A stretch of DNA of 29,425 bases. Source: a virus. Below the pieces are notes generated by a model. The model did no database searches, was not told the DNA's origin, and worked only from the letters and a program-made list of their open reading frames with translations. Positions within the stretch are counted from its first letter, which is position 1. Every line of letters begins with the position of its first letter. The position numbers were made by a program, and so were the translations under genes. Location of the stretch: positions 1-29,425 of IMG/VR virus record IMGVR_UViG_3300048924_000120; one strand, given 5' to 3'. Shown one piece after another: positions 4,317 through 24,907 of the stretch.

Positions 4317-4556
4317 TTGGCAAATGTTAATGCAGCGATAGAGCGGCTCATGGATATGCGTTTGGAGCTGGATGATACGATGCGACTGCTCGGTTTTGAC
4401 CCGGAAGCATCGGATCGCCAGCAGGCAGGGACGGACGAGCGTGTGTTGCTTCATTTACAGGATATATACGATGTGTTGGATGCTCCGAGACCAAATGGGG
4501 GCTACGCGAAGCAACTGGTGCAAGAAGCGATGAAAATTGCAAAGGAAGAGATGTAA
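4317..4556 (+). CDS. small helical phage protein, 79 aa
   Basis: A 79-residue protein starting at a TTG 6 bp after GGAGGTG. It is mostly helical and charged (ERLMDMRLELDDTMRLLGFD at the start, GYAKQLVQEAMKIAKEEM at the end), with no cysteines, membrane segment or motif that I recognise. It sits between the two regulator genes and may be a small partner of one of them, but nothing in the sequence shows this. Confidence 0.6.
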   Translation: MANVNAAIERLMDMRLELDDTMRLLGFDPEASDRQQAGTDERVLLHLQDIYDVLDAPRPNGGYAKQLVQEAMKIAKEEM

Positions 4557-8591: not shown

Positions 8592-8677
8592 GTAGCTTTC
8601 TCCCTTCTCTTGTTCTCACTCTAGTAGTCTATCTATCTACATCTTTATGTGCGGAAGAATTTTTGGAGGTGTTCATC

Positions 8678-9226
8678 ATGGAAATCAGAGTCCTACCAAT
8701 CGAACAAATCAACGCAGCAGCATATAACCCACGGGATGACCTTCAGCCTGGTGACCCAGAGTATGAGAAGCTGAAAGCCAGCATCGAATCCTTTGGTTAT
8801 GTGGAGCCCATCGTCTGGAATGAGCGCACCGGGAACATGGTCGGCGGCCATCAACGCTATAAGATCATGGTTAACGAGCTGGGTCATACGGAGTTGACTG
8901 TAAGTGTTGTCGACCTGGACGATCAGCAGGAAAAGCTTCTCAATCTGGCGCTTAATAAGGTCAGTGGGAACTGGGATGATGAAGCCCTTTATCGATTGCT
9001 TGACGATCTGGAGCAGAGCGGAGCGGATATGGCTTTGTCTGGCTTTGACGCGGACGAGATAGAGGAGCTAATGAAGGACTTTACGGAGCCGCCAGAGGAC
9101 CAGCTTGGAGACTTCACCAACAAGGAACTGGACGTGTCAGACTTCGACGAAGAGAATTTTGAGTGCAAATGCCCACGTTGCGGTTTTGTGTTTGATCACA
9201 CAGAGAAAGGGGCCAGTGAGTCATGA
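8678..9226 (+). CDS. ParB-like nuclease-domain protein with C-terminal zinc knuckle
   Basis: A 182-residue protein with an N-terminal ParB/sulfiredoxin-like domain: VLPIEQINAAAYNPRDD, SIESFGYVEPIVWN and GGHQRYK, the last matching the GxxR box that in ParB-type proteins binds a nucleotide. The C-terminus ends in CKCPRCGFVF, a zinc-knuckle-like cysteine cluster. The ATG at 8678 lies 8 bp after GGAGG. The gene overlaps the next gene by 4 bp (ATGA), and the second ParB-like domain in the cassette (10261) is fused to a methyltransferase. The family occurs often next to phage methyltransferases and terminases. It may guide modification or cleave DNA; the activity is inferred. Confidence 0.82.
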   Translation: MEIRVLPIEQINAAAYNPRDDLQPGDPEYEKLKASIESFGYVEPIVWNERTGNMVGGHQRYKIMVNELGHTELTVSVVDLDDQQEKLLNLALNKVSGNWDDEALYRLLDDLEQSGADMALSGFDADEIEELMKDFTEPPEDQLGDFTNKELDVSDFDEENFECKCPRCGFVFDHTEKGASES

Positions 9227-10260
9227 GCCGCCCAGCATGGGATTGGAAACTGTCTGATCTGGCCGCTGTGCCGCAGCATGGACGGACGGTGTTTTCTTGC
9301 TTCTCCTGTGGCGGTGGCTCCACAATGGGATACAAGCGAGCTGGCTATAAGGTGCTGGGCAATGTTGAGATCGATCCGCAGATGATGCGTATCTACAAAA
9401 AGAACCACAACCCACCGTATCCGTTCTTAATGCCCATTCAGGACTTCAAGTCTATTCCTGATAGTGAGCTGCCGGCAGAATTGTTTAATCTGGATGTGTT
9501 GGATGGGTCGCCTCCATGTAGTGTGTTTTCAACTGCAGGTGACCGTGAAGATAAATGGGGTGGAGAATATGCTTTCCGTGAGGGACAGGCCGTACAGCAA
9601 CTTGACGACCTGTTTTTTGAGTTTCTGGAGGTAGCGCACAAACTTCAGCCCCGTGCGATCGTAGCGGAGAACGTCAAGGGTATGTTGATCGGTAAAGCCC
9701 GGGGCTTCGTGAGCCTGGTATTGTCCCGAATTCGGGAGATTGGATACAGACCACAGTTATTCCTTCTCAATTCTGCGACGATGGGCGTCCCTCAAAAGCG
9801 GGAGCGTGTTTTCTTCATCGCAGCTCGGGAGGACATGCCTTTCCCGCCGCTGAAGCTGGAGTTCAACGACCCACCTGTTCTGTATAAGGATATTCGTAGC
9901 GGGGAGGGCAGACCGATCAACCAGGACAGTCTAACATTTCAGCGCTGGAACAAGAAACGCCCGTCTGATCTTAATATGGGGGATGTGACGGAGCGCGAAG
10001 AAGGCAAAGTGAGCAACTTTAATACCATTCTGCTCAAGGATCAGAAAGTGGCCAACACGATTGCGAGTTCGTCCGTGTTCCTTCGGGGTGATGTGCCACA
10101 GCAGATATCCGTTTCTGACATTATCCGTATACAGACTTTCCCAAGCGATTACGATTTTCTGGATGCTGATCCGCAGTACGTTTGCGGTATGAGTGTCCCA
10201 CCGCTGATGATGCAGCGGATTGCAGAGCAAATCAATACCCAATGGTTTGAGGTGAGGTAA
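9223..10260 (+). CDS. DNA cytosine-C5 methyltransferase
   Basis: A 345-residue type II-like C5-cytosine methyltransferase that transfers a methyl group from S-adenosylmethionine to cytosine. Visible motifs, in order: I (FSCFSCGGGSTMGYKRAG, SAM binding), IV with the catalytic cysteine (GSPPC, C99), VI (AENV, E149), VIII (QKRERVFF), a target-recognition region at about 215-280 and the closing VSDIIRIQTFP/CGMSVPP of motifs IX-X. No restriction endonuclease gene is next to it, so it is a solitary phage methyltransferase, likely protecting phage DNA from host restriction. The recognition sequence cannot be predicted here. Confidence 0.93.
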   Translation: MSRPAWDWKLSDLAAVPQHGRTVFSCFSCGGGSTMGYKRAGYKVLGNVEIDPQMMRIYKKNHNPPYPFLMPIQDFKSIPDSELPAELFNLDVLDGSPPCSVFSTAGDREDKWGGEYAFREGQAVQQLDDLFFEFLEVAHKLQPRAIVAENVKGMLIGKARGFVSLVLSRIREIGYRPQLFLLNSATMGVPQKRERVFFIAAREDMPFPPLKLEFNDPPVLYKDIRSGEGRPINQDSLTFQRWNKKRPSDLNMGDVTEREEGKVSNFNTILLKDQKVANTIASSSVFLRGDVPQQISVSDIIRIQTFPSDYDFLDADPQYVCGMSVPPLMMQRIAEQINTQWFEVR

Positions 10261-11553
10261 ATGAGAGTTGAAGCGGTGCCGATAAGTCAACTAAGACGCA
10301 ATGATTGGAATCCCAATGAAATAGATAATCGTCGGTTCGAATCACTTGTGGCCAGTATTCGAAAACATGGCGTATTGCAGCCTATACTGGTGCGTTCCGA
10401 CATGACAATAGTTAAGGGCGAGAAGCGCTGGAAGGCAGCAAAAGAAGCGGGCTTACAAGAGTTACTGGCGGTTGTAGTTGAAAGTAGCGAGGAAGAATCT
10501 AAGCTGTTAACCGTCAGCCTGAGCAATTTACGCGGGCGAACAAACGAGGAATTGTTGGCTTCGCTAATTGGGGAATTATCACAGCATTTCTCAATTGCAG
10601 ATATAGCGATACAAACTGGTTTTGCTGTTGAAGAGCTTGACGATCTGCTTGCTGGTTTACCAACAGACACTGACATGGATGAACCAGTAACGGATGATGG
10701 ATTTGATGTCCAGCGTGCTCTAGATGAAATCAAGGAACCGGAGACGAGGCGCGGGGATGTGTGGCAACTAGGCCGGCACCGCTTGGTGTGTGGAGATGCG
10801 ACCAAGCCTGATGATGTTGCACTTTTAATGGACGGGGCTAAAGCAGCGCTGGTCGTTACTGATCCACCTTATAATGTGGCCGTTGAGAGTGTTTCAGAGC
10901 GTTTGGCCGCTGATGGCCGTAGCAGCATAATGAACGACAACATGCCCGCTGAGGACTTCGCGGGCTTTTTGCATTCCGTTTTTTCCAACTATGCAGTGGT
11001 GATGCAGCCAACTGCAGCTATATATGTATTTCATCCTTCGTCCTACCAGCGGGAGTTCGAGGATGCGATGAACGTAGCCGGCATCGTCGTCCGAACACAA
11101 TGCGTCTGGGTTAAGAATGCAGCCACCTTCGGCTGGGCACAGTACCGCTTTAAACATGAGCCGGTCTTTTATGCCCACCTGAAGGGCAAAGCTCCTGCCT
11201 GGTACGGTGATCGGACACAGACAACGGTATGGAAGGCTGGCCTGCCTGTTGAGGACCCGCTGCCTGAGACAGTATGGGAGGTTTCGAGGGGTGATGTGAA
11301 CAAGTACGTCCATCCTACTCAAAAACCTCTTGATCTGTTGGCCATTCCAATTAAGAATAGCAGCCAGCGTGGTGACGAGGTTGTCGATTTCTTTGGCGGC
11401 AGTGGTTCAACGCTTATGACATGTGAGCAGATGGACCGGACATGCCGGACTTTGGAATTGGACCCGATTTTCTGTGATGTAATTAAGAAACGTTTCCTGG
11501 AGAGTACTGGTATTGAGCCAGTCCTGTTGCATCGGGCTGAACCCGTAGCATAG
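10261..11553 (+). CDS. ParB-like domain fused to an N6-adenine/N4-cytosine DNA methyltransferase
   Basis: A 430-residue two-domain protein. Residues about 1-135 are a ParB-like domain (VPISQLRRNDWNPNE, HGVLQPILV, KGEKRWKAA). Residues about 155-425 are an amino-methyltransferase: motif IV DPPY at D201-Y204 comes before the SAM motif DFFGGSGS at 376-383, the beta-class order, with the HPTQKPLDL segment between. It starts directly at the stop of the C5 methyltransferase gene (TAAATG), so the three genes 8678-11553 form one operon. The two ParB-like domains are clearly different sequences. It modifies adenine or cytosine amino groups; the site is unknown. Confidence 0.92.
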   Translation: MRVEAVPISQLRRNDWNPNEIDNRRFESLVASIRKHGVLQPILVRSDMTIVKGEKRWKAAKEAGLQELLAVVVESSEEESKLLTVSLSNLRGRTNEELLASLIGELSQHFSIADIAIQTGFAVEELDDLLAGLPTDTDMDEPVTDDGFDVQRALDEIKEPETRRGDVWQLGRHRLVCGDATKPDDVALLMDGAKAALVVTDPPYNVAVESVSERLAADGRSSIMNDNMPAEDFAGFLHSVFSNYAVVMQPTAAIYVFHPSSYQREFEDAMNVAGIVVRTQCVWVKNAATFGWAQYRFKHEPVFYAHLKGKAPAWYGDRTQTTVWKAGLPVEDPLPETVWEVSRGDVNKYVHPTQKPLDLLAIPIKNSSQRGDEVVDFFGGSGSTLMTCEQMDRTCRTLELDPIFCDVIKKRFLESTGIEPVLLHRAEPVA

Positions 11554-15190: not shown

Positions 15191-16687
15191 ATGAGTGAGG
15201 GAAATGCACAGTGGTTTCAGATCAGCAAGGCGGACGATGAACGGCATATACCGTCCAGTGCTCAATTGCCGGATTTATTTGACGATCTGTACGATCTTCA
15301 CGGTCTGTTACCCTTCGCACTCGGCAATGACCCTGCTTCCTGCAAGCTGTTGGTCAAAAACTCCAACATCATACCGCAATGCATAGAGGCATACAAACGC
15401 AATATCGCTGGTTATGGTATTGCCCTGGAGTATTTGCCGGGAGAGAGCGACGTAACTGCGCTGGATGAATGGAACAAGGCCGAAAAATTCCTTGAAACCT
15501 GCAATTTGGAGGATACCCCGGACGAAATCATCAGCCAGTTGATTGACGATTTGGAAAGTACGGGGATGGCTCATGTCGAGGTAGCTTGGCCTGCTGGTTC
15601 GGAGTTCCCGACTATCTTCCGGATGAACCCGAAATACGTCCGCTGTACAAAGGAAAGTAACAAGGCGATTATCAAACGTAAGCGGCGAATCAGCTCTACA
15701 AAACAAGTAGAGGAATTTTCACAGGAGATTTACGCACGACGCTATGCTATGAAGCGCAATACATCTGTCGTGTGGTTCCGACTGTTTGGGACGGAGGCAG
15801 ATGAAGGTAAAGAGGAAAATCAGATCATCCCTCTTTGCATCGGTCATGACGGTCCTTATGGTGAGCCACGATGGTTCGGCAATGCGCCTGGCGTGGTTGG
15901 CAGTCGCGAAGCTGAGGAATTGAATGTGAATTACTTTAGCAACGGACGGATGCTGTCCATGCTCCTAACTGTTACTAACGGCAAGCTGACCAAACAATCT
16001 ATGGAGCTGCTTAAAAATGTGAAAGGTTCCGACTCACAGGGTGGCATACTCTATTTGGAGGCAAAAGGGGAAGAGACAGGCGGTCCGATGGACGAAAAGG
16101 TTGAAAAAGTGCAGATCAAGTTGGACAAGCTCAATGACCTGTTACAACAAGACGCGCTCTTTCTGGAGTATGGCAAGGAAAAGAAGACTGATATTTTGTC
16201 TGCCTTCCGGCTGCCTCCAATCTTGGTCGGTCAAAGTTCGGATTATAACAGGGCGACCGCCGATGCAGCTCTACGCTTTGCAGAAGAACAAGTTTTTGAG
16301 CCTTACCGCAAGTGGATCATGGCAGAGATATTCAATAAACGCCTGTTCCCGGCTATGGACATTTTCCGAGTGCGTGCCGTGTTGAGAGGGCCGAAGATTA
16401 TAGACCCGGCTGATCGCAAGGCTATGCTGGACTTTATCGCTGATCGGGGCATTATGCTGGTGCGGGATCTGATTCCGATTGCCGAGGACGTGCTGGGAAC
16501 TACCATCGACGAAACCAAGTTCACCGAGGAATATCTGGACACACCGATTGCGCAACTTGCGACCAGCCAGCCCGCATTGCTTGAGCCAGAGCCTGACACG
16601 GACACAGACGATTTGCAAGAACGTGTTGCTACAATTGCCAAACGCTTGTTAAAACAGGCTGACAAGGAGGCAGGCATTCATGTGTGA
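15191..16687 (+). CDS. portal protein, PBSX-type
   Basis: A 498-residue portal subunit; twelve copies form the ring through which DNA passes at one head vertex. The N-terminal third contains NSNIIPQCIEAYKRNIAGYG, the usual 'IP.CI..Y..NI.GYG' of PBSX-type portals. After this come the core and the FRLPPILVGQSSDYNRATAD segment followed by a long helix (AALRFAEEQVFEPYRKWI). The C-terminus is helical and ends LLKQADKEAG. The start is ATG 15191, just after the TerL stop; an in-frame ATG at 15047 lies inside TerL and is rejected. It overlaps the next gene by 8 bp. Confidence 0.88.
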   Translation: MSEGNAQWFQISKADDERHIPSSAQLPDLFDDLYDLHGLLPFALGNDPASCKLLVKNSNIIPQCIEAYKRNIAGYGIALEYLPGESDVTALDEWNKAEKFLETCNLEDTPDEIISQLIDDLESTGMAHVEVAWPAGSEFPTIFRMNPKYVRCTKESNKAIIKRKRRISSTKQVEEFSQEIYARRYAMKRNTSVVWFRLFGTEADEGKEENQIIPLCIGHDGPYGEPRWFGNAPGVVGSREAEELNVNYFSNGRMLSMLLTVTNGKLTKQSMELLKNVKGSDSQGGILYLEAKGEETGGPMDEKVEKVQIKLDKLNDLLQQDALFLEYGKEKKTDILSAFRLPPILVGQSSDYNRATADAALRFAEEQVFEPYRKWIMAEIFNKRLFPAMDIFRVRAVLRGPKIIDPADRKAMLDFIADRGIMLVRDLIPIAEDVLGTTIDETKFTEEYLDTPIAQLATSQPALLEPEPDTDTDDLQERVATIAKRLLKQADKEAGIHV

Positions 16688-17510
16688 GTCCTGCTGGGCG
16701 CTGATCGCCAAAGCTGACGACGACGAATTTCTGGATAGCTTGGAACTATCCTATGTTGAACGTAAGGTGCTGGAAGAACTGTACAAGCAGGGCGAGGATC
16801 GCATAACCGAGATTCTGGAGCTTCAAGGTCAAGCCCTTCATGATGCCATTTCAGAACTAAGTGAAGATGCCCTGGGTGATATCGGGGAACTGGGTAAGGT
16901 GCTTATCGCTTTGCACACAACAGATGTGTTTGCGGAGCTGTTTGAGCAAGCCATACAGGAGGCTTTTGAACCGCTGTTTCATATGGCCGGGGAAACAGAA
17001 CTGTCCGCGTTAGACAGGGAAAAGGTGTGGAGTACCAGTAACAAGGCTGCTGGCCGTTTCACGAAGAAGCTCAAGAAACTGGTTTCCGACATGAACAAAG
17101 CTTCTACGGATGTGTTGCTGCGTAGCTTCGGCAAAGCCATTGAGGAAGGAGCTACACCTTCCGAGAGGGCTTTGCTTGTGCAGGAAGTCAGCGCGCAGGC
17201 TGCCAACGGGGAAGATGGCCCATTTAGTATGCAACGTGCTCAGCGGGTATCACGAACCATGAGTACAGCAGCCGCCAACGGTGGCAAGCTGGAGGGCTGG
17301 AAACAGTCGGAGATTGCCAAAGGCAAGAAATGGCGGTCTTCTTCTGGGACACGTACTCGCAAGAGCCATCGCAAGGCCAATGGTCAGGTGGTACCGCTGG
17401 ATGAACCGTTTAAAGTCGGTGACAGCAAACTAATGTATCCCGGTGATCCGTCCGGGGAGGCAAAGGAAATCGTAAACTGTCGCTGTACTATGCAATTGGT
17501 GCTGGATTAA
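16680..17510 (+). CDS. minor head protein, Mu F-like (head morphogenesis)
   Basis: A 276-residue head protein. The C-terminus has the conserved minor head protein signature: HRKANGQVVPLDEPFKVGD, the MYPGDPSGEAKEIVNCR stretch and the closing VNCRCTMQLVLD. This region resembles the Mu gpF/SPP1 gp7 family, which sits at the portal and helps head assembly or DNA ejection. The N-terminus is helical (MCESCWALIAKADDDEFLDS). It overlaps the portal gene, as in PBSX-type phages. Its stop overlaps the stop of the minus-strand membrane gene. Confidence 0.85.
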   Translation: MCESCWALIAKADDDEFLDSLELSYVERKVLEELYKQGEDRITEILELQGQALHDAISELSEDALGDIGELGKVLIALHTTDVFAELFEQAIQEAFEPLFHMAGETELSALDREKVWSTSNKAAGRFTKKLKKLVSDMNKASTDVLLRSFGKAIEEGATPSERALLVQEVSAQAANGEDGPFSMQRAQRVSRTMSTAAANGGKLEGWKQSEIAKGKKWRSSSGTRTRKSHRKANGQVVPLDEPFKVGDSKLMYPGDPSGEAKEIVNCRCTMQLVLD

Positions 17511-17956
17511 GGATTTATTTTGAAGAATTTTAAAAATAAATTGAAGTACAAATACAGTACAGCTGTAGGAACTATATAGGAGATAAATGTCCAAAATATA
17601 TTCCAACCGTTAAAGTACGTAATCCTATCAAACTCCTTGAATATCCATTCGATTACTGTCAAGAGGATGGAGGTCAAGATTATGGAGGGAGCTGCTTTTG
17701 TGCCTTTACTAGAAATGAAATATAGCATAGAGCATATCACGATTGGATAAAGACCAAGGTCAAACGGAAGTGCTGAGAAGGATGCATTTCTAAATCTAGG
17801 AGAAAGAAACCAAAAATAATTGAAGCCAATTGTATTAATAACAGTAGACAATGCAATCGTGATAGGTACAAAAACAAACAATAGCTTTCTGTCTTTTATG
17901 AATCCTAAACCTAAAATCCAAGGAATTATAAAGCCTGCAATAAAATTTAATGTCAT
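17507..17956 (-). CDS. minus-strand integral membrane protein, CBO0543-like
   Basis: A 149-residue AT-rich protein with four to five hydrophobic helices (about 3-18, 25-47, 66-83, 88-106 and 118-143). The arrangement LGLYPIV, IEWIFKE and FNGWNIFWTF recalls the CBO0543 family of Firmicute membrane proteins (function unknown); this is pattern recall. The start ATG at 17956 has GGAGG 6 bp upstream on the minus strand. It interrupts the plus-strand head operon, between the head-morphogenesis and protease genes, and its stop overlaps the neighbour's stop, so it is a late insertion or cargo gene probably read from its own promoter in the lysogen. Confidence 0.72.
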   Translation of the reverse strand: MTLNFIAGFIIPWILGLGFIKDRKLLFVFVPITIALSTVINTIGFNYFWFLSPRFRNASFSALPFDLGLYPIVICSMLYFISSKGTKAAPSIILTSILLTVIEWIFKEFDRITYFNGWNIFWTFISYIVPTAVLYLYFNLFLKFFKINP

Positions 17957-22249: not shown

Positions 22250-22506
22250 CTGAGGATTTAAACAAACGGAATAAGCAGGAATGGATTGAGAGCGCAGCGG
22301 TCTTGAAGGCAGAGCCTTACGAGATTGCGGGCGCTCTTTTTGATTGCGCTGCTTGCGACTTGCTTTCGCGGGCAGAAGTGGAGCAAAGACTGGATGCGTA
22401 TTTGCATCCGGTCAAGGAAGCCCCTGCTTCTACGCCTGTTAAACCAGAAGTACCACAAGTGAAAAAACCAAAGGAGGAAACGCCAAATGACAATTCAGCG
22501 GGTTAG
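22246..22506 (+). CDS. small phage protein before the sheath gene, 86 aa
   Basis: An 86-residue protein with a helical N-terminus (NKRNKQEWIESAAVLKAEPY, then EIAGALFDCAACDLLSRAE) and a Pro/Lys-rich tail (STPVKPEVPQVKKPKEETPN). The pattern WIESA..L..EPY.IAGAL is common to small proteins encoded just before the sheath in PBSX-like phages; its role is unknown. It overlaps the sheath gene by 20 bp. Confidence 0.65.
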   Translation: MTEDLNKRNKQEWIESAAVLKAEPYEIAGALFDCAACDLLSRAEVEQRLDAYLHPVKEAPASTPVKPEVPQVKKPKEETPNDNSAG

Positions 22507-23839
22507 GCCCAGCGCGTACATTGAATTGCTAGTAAAGGCACGGTCTCGGGTTGTTCCAACAACTGGCCGCGTACTCATTCCCTATCAGGCCGAATGGGGC
22601 GCACCGAACCAAGCCGTAGATATGGCTGATGATTCGGAACGACTGAAAGAGTCCGGCAAGCTTGTTGATGTATTGGAGCTTGCTGCCGAAAGCGGGGCGA
22701 CTGTTATCGGCTACCGGGTTACAAACGGGGAAGAAAAGGCTGCATCTGTCACTGTTGCTGACAGCTACACTATTGAGGCACGTTATCCAGGGGCACGAGG
22801 CAATGATTTCGAATACATGGTGCGTCCGGCTCTTATCGATGACACCAAGAAGGAGATCGTAGTCCGCGACACCAAGGGCGTATATGATACCGAAACGTAT
22901 CTTGTAGCTGACAAAGCCGTTGCTGTGGAAGCTCTTAAAAAGTCCGCTATGGTCCGTTTTAAAGATACTGGAGCTACTGCCCTTGCAGACGTGGCTTACA
23001 CCAAACTAGATGGCGGTACAACCGGTACGGCCACACTGGCGGCAGCCGACTGGAATCGTATCTTTAACCGGGTATATGGCCTGACGTTTGATACTATTTA
23101 CCTTTCCGCAACTGATCCGGCTGTACAAGCTTCCGCCAAACAATGGCTGTTGGATCGCCGCGATAAGGGCCATAAGCTGGCGACGTTGGTTATCGCTGGC
23201 CCTGCGTCTACGGACGGCGATATCGAGGCCCACAATGCTCGTAGTCGGGCAATGAATGCCCGTTATGTAATTAACTGCTCTCTTGCTGGCGATCATACCA
23301 ACGGCAAGACCTACACATCCGTCGAATGGGCGGCATGGGTGGCTGGATTGGTTGCGGGTACGCCTGCCAATAAGTCTTTTACAGGTGTCAAAGTTCCGAT
23401 GACGCAGGCAAAAGTGGACTGGAGTCATAGCGAAGTGTTGAAAGGACTTGCAGAAGGTACGCTGATGGCCACGCGAGATGGGTACGACTACGTTATCGAG
23501 CAGGCCATCAACACACTGACCACGCTCGGACCGAATGAACGTGAGGACTTTGGGAAGATTCGCGTTTCCGCTACGATTGACCAGGTCATGAACGATATTT
23601 ACGAAGCAGGCAAGCGTTGGAAGGCCAAGCTGGATAACGACAAAGAAGGTCGCGGCATGTTTGTTGCTGCGGTCTTGGAGTACCTCAAAATCCGTGCCCA
23701 GCAAAAGGCCATTGCGGACAAATTTAGCTTTGCTGAAAACCCTAACAAGACAAGCGAGAATGATTACGCCTATTTTGTACTTGCCGCTAAACCATTGGAT
23801 GCTATCGAGATTTTCTATATTGATTGGGAGGTGGAATAA
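22487..23839 (+). CDS. xkdK: tail sheath protein, XkdK-like
   Basis: A 450-residue contractile sheath subunit. The N-terminus RPSAYIELLVKA is the usual 'RPG.Y..' start; the middle has EARYPGARGNDFEY (sheath core signature) and LDGGTTGTATLAAADWNRIF; the C-terminus has the conserved IRVSATIDQVMNDIYEAGKR and ends AIEIFYIDWEVE. Many copies form the sheath around the tube and contract on infection, so the phage is a myovirus. ATG 22487 follows AAGGAGG. The tube gene starts 3 bp after the stop. Confidence 0.93.
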   Translation: MTIQRVRPSAYIELLVKARSRVVPTTGRVLIPYQAEWGAPNQAVDMADDSERLKESGKLVDVLELAAESGATVIGYRVTNGEEKAASVTVADSYTIEARYPGARGNDFEYMVRPALIDDTKKEIVVRDTKGVYDTETYLVADKAVAVEALKKSAMVRFKDTGATALADVAYTKLDGGTTGTATLAAADWNRIFNRVYGLTFDTIYLSATDPAVQASAKQWLLDRRDKGHKLATLVIAGPASTDGDIEAHNARSRAMNARYVINCSLAGDHTNGKTYTSVEWAAWVAGLVAGTPANKSFTGVKVPMTQAKVDWSHSEVLKGLAEGTLMATRDGYDYVIEQAINTLTTLGPNEREDFGKIRVSATIDQVMNDIYEAGKRWKAKLDNDKEGRGMFVAAVLEYLKIRAQQKAIADKFSFAENPNKTSENDYAYFVLAAKPLDAIEIFYIDWEVE

Positions 23840-23842
23840 TAG

Positions 23843-24287
23843 ATGGAACGCGAACTTATTGGACGAAATCTCTCGCTCCAAGATGATAACGGCGAGGACA
23901 TTCATACTGTCAAGGAAGTTGAGGTTAAGCTGACTACGGAAACATTGGATATTGTCAGAGCACGCCGTATGACGAACAAAGCAATTGACGGGTTACGAAA
24001 TCCCGGTCAAAATCGTCATGTCCAAATTAGAATCTCGGCTGCGTTACCGACTGCTGGAGGATTTTAAAGCAGGTAAGACCATGTTTTTGGCACGCATTAC
24101 AGGCGGTCTTGAAGACCGTATCACTGGCAACACGGAGAAAGTGTTGATTACTGGTGTCCACATCCACGGAGAAATGGACATCCTGATTGCCAAAATTGAC
24201 GACAACAACGGAATCGATATTACTTTAGAGGGTACGGCGACGGACTTCGATTTTGTCGAAAAGTTCCCAGATTATATGTGGGAGTAA
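23843..24287 (+). CDS. xkdM: tail tube protein, XkdM-like, split over two frames
   Basis: The ATG at 23843, 8 bp after GGGAGGTGG, reads MERELIGRNLSLQDDNGEDI and stays open to a stop at 24067. The second part, found in the +1 frame, runs up to the stop at 24285-24287 and reads TGYEIPVKIVMSKLESRLRY, then ending DFDFVEKFPDYMWE. Joined after AAC AAA (23975-23980) by skipping one base, the product is 147 residues and aligns end to end with XkdM-type tube proteins (the RRMTN-K-TGYE join matches RRMTGHKTTG of B. subtilis XkdM as I remember it). Either an indel (one extra A in an AAA run), an assembly error or a programmed +1 frameshift. No start for the second half alone is supported by a ribosome site. 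Confidence 0.75.
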
Positions 24288-24314
24288 GAGGGCGGTTCAT
24301 TCGCTCTCTTTTTT
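24287..24314 (+). terminator. terminator between tail tube and tail chaperone genes
   Basis: AGAGGGCG (24287-24294) pairs with CGCTCTCT (24302-24309), with one G-U, 7-nt loop, followed by TTTTTT. It overlaps the tube gene stop. It would reduce the downstream genes relative to the abundant sheath and tube. Confidence 0.7.
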
Positions 24315-24350: not shown

Positions 24351-24770
24351 ATGAGTAATCAAGACAAATTGAAGAAATACCTAGCTAAAGCCAATGAAGT
24401 ACGTAAGGACGACGTTATTACGGTGCAAGCCGATGGCGAGGACTGGTCTGTACAACGCCTGAAAACATTAGACGTACGTCGGTCATATGATCTTGCTTTT
24501 GATGAGGATGGTAATTATAAGTCGCCTTATTTTAACGAAATCGACGTGATGATCGTCAAGGCGACAGAGCATGAGTTTGACTGGAATAACAAAGACCTTC
24601 TGAAAGCTTATGGAGCGACCAGCAAATTTGAATTGCCACCACGCATTTTAGACAACACGGACGATTATGCTGCACTCAGCAAGGCTGTGCGTAATTTCAA
24701 AGAGACTCAGGAATCGCTTTTAGCTGACGCAAAAAACTCATCCGGCGAGACGGAGAAGCGAGCTGGATAG
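24351..24770 (+). CDS. xkdN: tail assembly chaperone, short form (XkdN-like)
   Basis: A 139-residue tail assembly chaperone, the counterpart of lambda gpG, that keeps the tape measure protein soluble while the tail is built. The protein is helical with acidic patches (SNQDKLKKYLAKANEVRKDD, then LRNF-type end helix AALSKAVRNFKETQESLLAD). The start is ATG 24351, 7 bp after GGAGGA; an in-frame TTG at 24336 overlaps this site and is rejected. The stop at 24768-24770 can be bypassed by the -1 frameshift described in the next entry. Confidence 0.8.
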   Translation: MSNQDKLKKYLAKANEVRKDDVITVQADGEDWSVQRLKTLDVRRSYDLAFDEDGNYKSPYFNEIDVMIVKATEHEFDWNNKDLLKAYGATSKFELPPRILDNTDDYAALSKAVRNFKETQESLLADAKNSSGETEKRAG

Positions 24771-24907
24771 CTCATTTTTGGGTTAACCAAAAAAAATTGC
24801 CCGCCGAAGTCTTGCCGTATGAAGTAGACGAACAGCGCCAGTATTATTTTTGCCTGGCAGCATCAATGATTGCTGAGGAAGAAATGGCGCGTTTGAATCG
24901 GAAATAG
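24351..24907 (+). CDS. tail assembly chaperone, frameshifted long form
   Basis: A -1 shift at A AAA AAC (24731-24737) joins 129 residues of the short form to 56 residues in the -1 frame (ending at the TAG 24905-24907), giving 185 residues. The added part reads ASWIAHFWVNQKKLPAEVLP, then RQYYFCLAASMIAEEE, a short helical domain like the 'T' part of G/GT chaperones, which binds the tape measure. No stop interrupts it. The reading was checked codon by codon here. This explains why 24771-24907 has no start codon of its own. Confidence 0.82.
24731..24737 (+). promoter_or_regulatory. -1 ribosomal frameshift site A AAA AAC
   Basis: Frame-0 codons are GCA AAA AAC, so the heptamer is A AAA AAC in the X XXY YYZ form. 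ATCCGGC (24740-24746) can pair with GCTGGAT (24762-24768), a 7-bp stem with one G-U just downstream that may help pausing; the 2-nt gap is shorter than usual. Confidence 0.8.

Follow-up and report, generated by a model that had tools for sequence, protein, structure and literature searches.

The DNA analysed here (the window, 29,425 nucleotides of an IMG/VR virus record) is part of a Paenibacillus-type myovirus prophage. Its tail genes run in the order sheath, tube, chaperone, tape measure, as they do in relatives, and the gene under study occupies the place expected of a tube gene, between the tail sheath gene and the gene for an XkdN-like tail assembly chaperone:

22487–23839, + strand: tail sheath gene, intact, directly 5' of the tube gene (PHROG 279 tail sheath, 1.4e-80)
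23843–24067, + strand: 5' open frame of the tail tube gene, 74 codons, comprising about 44 native residues, about 28–30 out-of-frame residues and a stop
23973–24287, + strand: 3' open frame of the tail tube gene (C-terminal part), in another frame (PHROG 365, 8e-13)
24351–24770, + strand: XkdN-like tail assembly chaperone, short (unshifted) product (PHROG 389, 7.1e-09)

Set against three relatives, the sheath gene is full length and in frame, and the chaperone gene is likewise full length, with 91–100% identity. A terminator-like hairpin with a T run (24286–24310), which overlaps the tube stop codon and lies between the tube and chaperone genes in the late operon, may have the role of an attenuator. 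In two relatives, the tube and chaperone genes are separated by extra DNA of about 0.4–1 kb (L024, 3295–4300; L005, 3295–3700), which in L024 contains a long open frame with a membrane-associated look; this gap is a possible insertion point for cargo in the tail module.

Translation of bases 23843–24290 in all three frames reveals an intact tube N-terminus in one frame and an intact C-terminal part in another. The frame of 23843 reads MERELIGRNLSLQDDNGEDIHTVKEVEVKLTTETLDIVRARRMTNK, followed by about 28 residues to the stop at 24067, and the next frame, open from 23973, reads TKQLTGYEIPVKIVMSKLE...FPDYMWE to 24287; the split over two frames reported in the original prediction is therefore real. 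When the join is read through, the product is a protein of 147 residues that matches Pfam PF09393 ('Phage tail tube protein') at 6.2e-08 and 33.2 bits (cut-off 27) over positions 19–139 of the 139 in the profile, and PHROG 365 ('tail protein') at 1.1e-18 over nearly its whole length. For comparison, the intact relative L003 scores 37.0 bits against PF09393, and the match covers residues 16–139 in the read-through product and in intact relatives. Taken separately, the N part has no tube match among the Pfam and PHROG profiles and the Pfam match of the C part is below the cut-off, such that neither frame on its own reaches the PF09393 threshold. Solved structures gave weak sequence matches only (XkdM-like 6gkx and tube CD1364 8v3t, E near 0.8). 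The gene is a broken copy of a member of the XkdM-like/DUF2001 tail tube family (PF09393, PHROG 365), which it resembles in its family match and in its position between the sheath and the chaperone, and the earlier identification as an XkdM-like tube gene is borne out by the profile scores of the read-through product. It differs from its intact relatives in that they encode the tube in one frame of 146–148 residues; the window copy, broken by a two-base loss, is alone in lacking the uninterrupted frame of the family.

The break is located just after the ATG at 23970, within a short run of A's:

23973–23980, + strand: lesion, GAAC in place of the GAAAAC of intact relatives, a shortage of two A's, from blastn and codon comparison with L002, L003, L004 and L023

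At this place the four nearest relatives (L002, L003, L004 and L023), which are 91–94% identical to the window over 1 kb, read ATGACGAAAACAAAGCA or ATGACTAAAACAAAGCA, and the window reads ATGACGAACAAAGCA. Tube residues 1–44 of the window are identical to those of all four, and at the join the proteins have MTKTKQ in these intact relatives versus MTNKQ in the window read-through. The residues that follow the ATG at codon 43 are x-K-T-K-Q in every relative, with K-T-K invariant. In the four nearest relatives the tube protein has 148 residues, versus 147 in the read-through product, so, contrary to what had been proposed, the halves do not add up to exactly one full-length protein. An extra A in the AAA at 23978–23980, the change suggested originally, would likewise yield 147 residues and no invariant K-T, and was rejected; the comparison with the four relatives instead places a shortage of two A's a few bases upstream.

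The C-terminal half alone served as the query in the first searches for relatives, a choice that would bring up split copies as well; later searches employed a profile of intact tube proteins and a DNA search among genomes from the genus to which Paenibacillus maysiensis belongs. The survey covers 98 other tube loci from Paenibacillus and Aneurinibacillus prophages in viral contigs (47 distinct ones) and bacterial genomes; some of the loci overlap, and 43 sequences are distinct. According to a uniform check of each locus, all 98 possess a single uninterrupted full-length frame in which codon 44 is followed by KTK. A split is seen only in the window itself and in L001, a piece of the same record; the comparison with close relatives for which the original prediction had called thus found the split to be shared by none of the other loci. 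A pattern search for the exact lesion sequence in IMG/VR, with the window's own record left out, gave no match, and no close matches were found in annotated phage genomes.

Programmed or spontaneous frameshifting (+1 or −2) that joins the halves into a full tube protein would agree with the intactness of both halves and with the match of the read-through to the tube family over nearly its full length, but none of the 98 other loci uses a split frame. This excludes in practice the undescribed +1 recoding site that had been offered as one explanation, and recoding shared with relatives was rejected across the 98 loci. In addition, the KTK that is invariant at the join in relatives is missing from the window read-through, and the 0 frame continues for nearly 30 codons. 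No 0-frame stop codon, slippery motif or repeat heptamer was found at 23970–23985, the RNA fold at the join is ordinary (z −0.83), and the tube gene (23843–24287) has neither a conserved split nor a slippery or hungry codon site accompanied by a stimulatory signal. We consider joining of the halves by frameshifting to be highly improbable, and it would be extraordinary if this one phage had swapped an intact tube frame for a recoded one, shifting at AAC-AAA (23975–23980) enough to build tails. The original preference for an indel over recoding is accordingly supported by the survey.

Another way of rescuing the gene would be translation of the C-terminal part alone by re-initiation, for example at the TTG at 23985, which stands in an open frame, to yield a working two-piece tube. 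However, no ribosome binding site is seen 5' of this TTG, the same stretch is the middle of one domain in relatives, and no relative has separate halves; the chance of such a tube appears negligible.

The gene that follows the tube gene carries the features of the conserved −1 frameshift of tail assembly chaperone genes (Xu, Hendrix and Duda 2004, as cited in PMC4493119 and PMC2628397):

24731–24737, + strand: A_AAA_AAC, −1 slippery heptamer of the tail assembly chaperone, recognised by its register and the downstream RNA fold
24728–24907, + strand: −1 frame extension of the tail assembly chaperone, matching a conserved C-terminal extension in the −1 frame of relatives

A slippery heptamer in the same register (A_AAA_AAC, A_AAA_AAA or G_GGA_AAG) is present in all 38 distinct overlap sequences, in the chaperone region (24351–24907) it is accompanied by a conserved −1 extension that precedes the tape measure gene, and the RNA fold downstream of the heptamer is strong (z −4.61, as opposed to the z-score at the tube join). 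By these sequence features, the A_AAA_AAC at 24731–24737 can be identified as the real recoding site of the tail module, namely the known chaperone −1 shift. Lying outside the tube gene, this site has no part in joining the tube halves, but it provides a model of a real recoding site in the same module. A literature search for XkdN frameshifting found nothing on the point.

The most likely explanation, to which we assign a probability of about two-thirds, is that the tube gene of the prophage lost two bases in the short A run, that is, a recent frameshift mutation in the actual DNA. Outside the lesion, the comparison of 145 codons with L002, L003, L004 and L023 revealed 16–35 synonymous and no nonsynonymous differences, and all codons from 23985 on differ from these relatives only synonymously. 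The absence of nonsynonymous differences indicates that selection preserved the tube protein until very recently, and the break must be either very recent or an error. The state of the gene fits a fresh mutation in a lysogen or a record error, but not old decay.

A sequencing or assembly error, in which the real tube gene is intact and the consensus lost two bases, is possible, and we give it a minority of the weight. The otherwise perfect conservation of the tube at the protein level agrees with it, the absence of further decay in the gene is equally expected of an error, the lesion occurs in no other record, and every other compared gene is intact. On the other hand, homopolymer errors do not usually take the form of a two-base loss from a four-base run, and elsewhere in the record genes stay in frame across runs of six to eight bases. 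Runs of at least four identical bases that start in the listed genes number 331, and none of these breaks a compared gene; because the 17 runs of six to eight bases are among them, the record does not give the impression of many homopolymer errors. A single mutation is thereby moderately favoured over an error-prone read technology.

To assess the rest of the window, 30 of its genes were aligned with the corresponding DNA of three related phages. Almost all window genes with a counterpart align end to end and in frame, and no other broken genes were found among those compared. With the exception of the tube lesion, the indels that separate the window from its nearest relatives have a length divisible by three, are offset by another within a few codons, fall between genes, or occur in the relative alone. 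A possible second lesion, at 4533, was rejected, as L034 matches the window there and L033 alone deviates. Apparent multi-frame matches elsewhere proved to stem from antisense frames or from paralogous ParB/methyltransferase-like genes. Two paralogous ParB-like N-terminal domains (8663–9226 and 10261–11553), named by eye, flank a DNA cytosine methyltransferase-like gene (9223–10260), and the second copy is apparently fused to another methyltransferase domain. Between the gene at 16680–17510 and an XkdF-like protease, the blastn alignment of the window with its nearest relatives is interrupted at 17507–17956 (− strand) by a membrane-protein-like frame of 149 residues, which looks like an inserted cargo gene.

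Frameshifted genes occur in decaying or defective prophages. The window resembles such prophages in that one inactivating indel disrupts an essential structural gene and the prophage otherwise looks intact; it differs in that only this one gene was found broken, the record being a partial sequence. A single, ordinary frameshift lesion (or an error in the sequence) accounts for the split, which is no novel way of reading a gene.

If the two bases are missing from the actual DNA, translation would start normally, depart from the frame after about 44 residues and stop at 24067, and the product would be a truncated, presumably non-functional tube fragment of 74 residues. Without the tube protein, no tail tube would polymerise around the tape measure, and the prophage would give no infectious tailed virions, even though its other structural genes look intact. 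For the homologous step in siphoviruses, polymerisation of the tube around the tape measure, PMC4493119 provides a description. Since this is the role of the tube protein in the family, a lysogen with the lesion should have no working tail; that the actual DNA carries the lesion, and that tails are lost as a result, are both inferred.

The finding has little import beyond annotation: a flag on the record should warn that its tail tube gene is frameshifted, which would keep the two halves from being annotated as separate proteins and the site from being listed as a recoding event. Given a real lesion, the prophage would be expected to assemble heads but no working tails.
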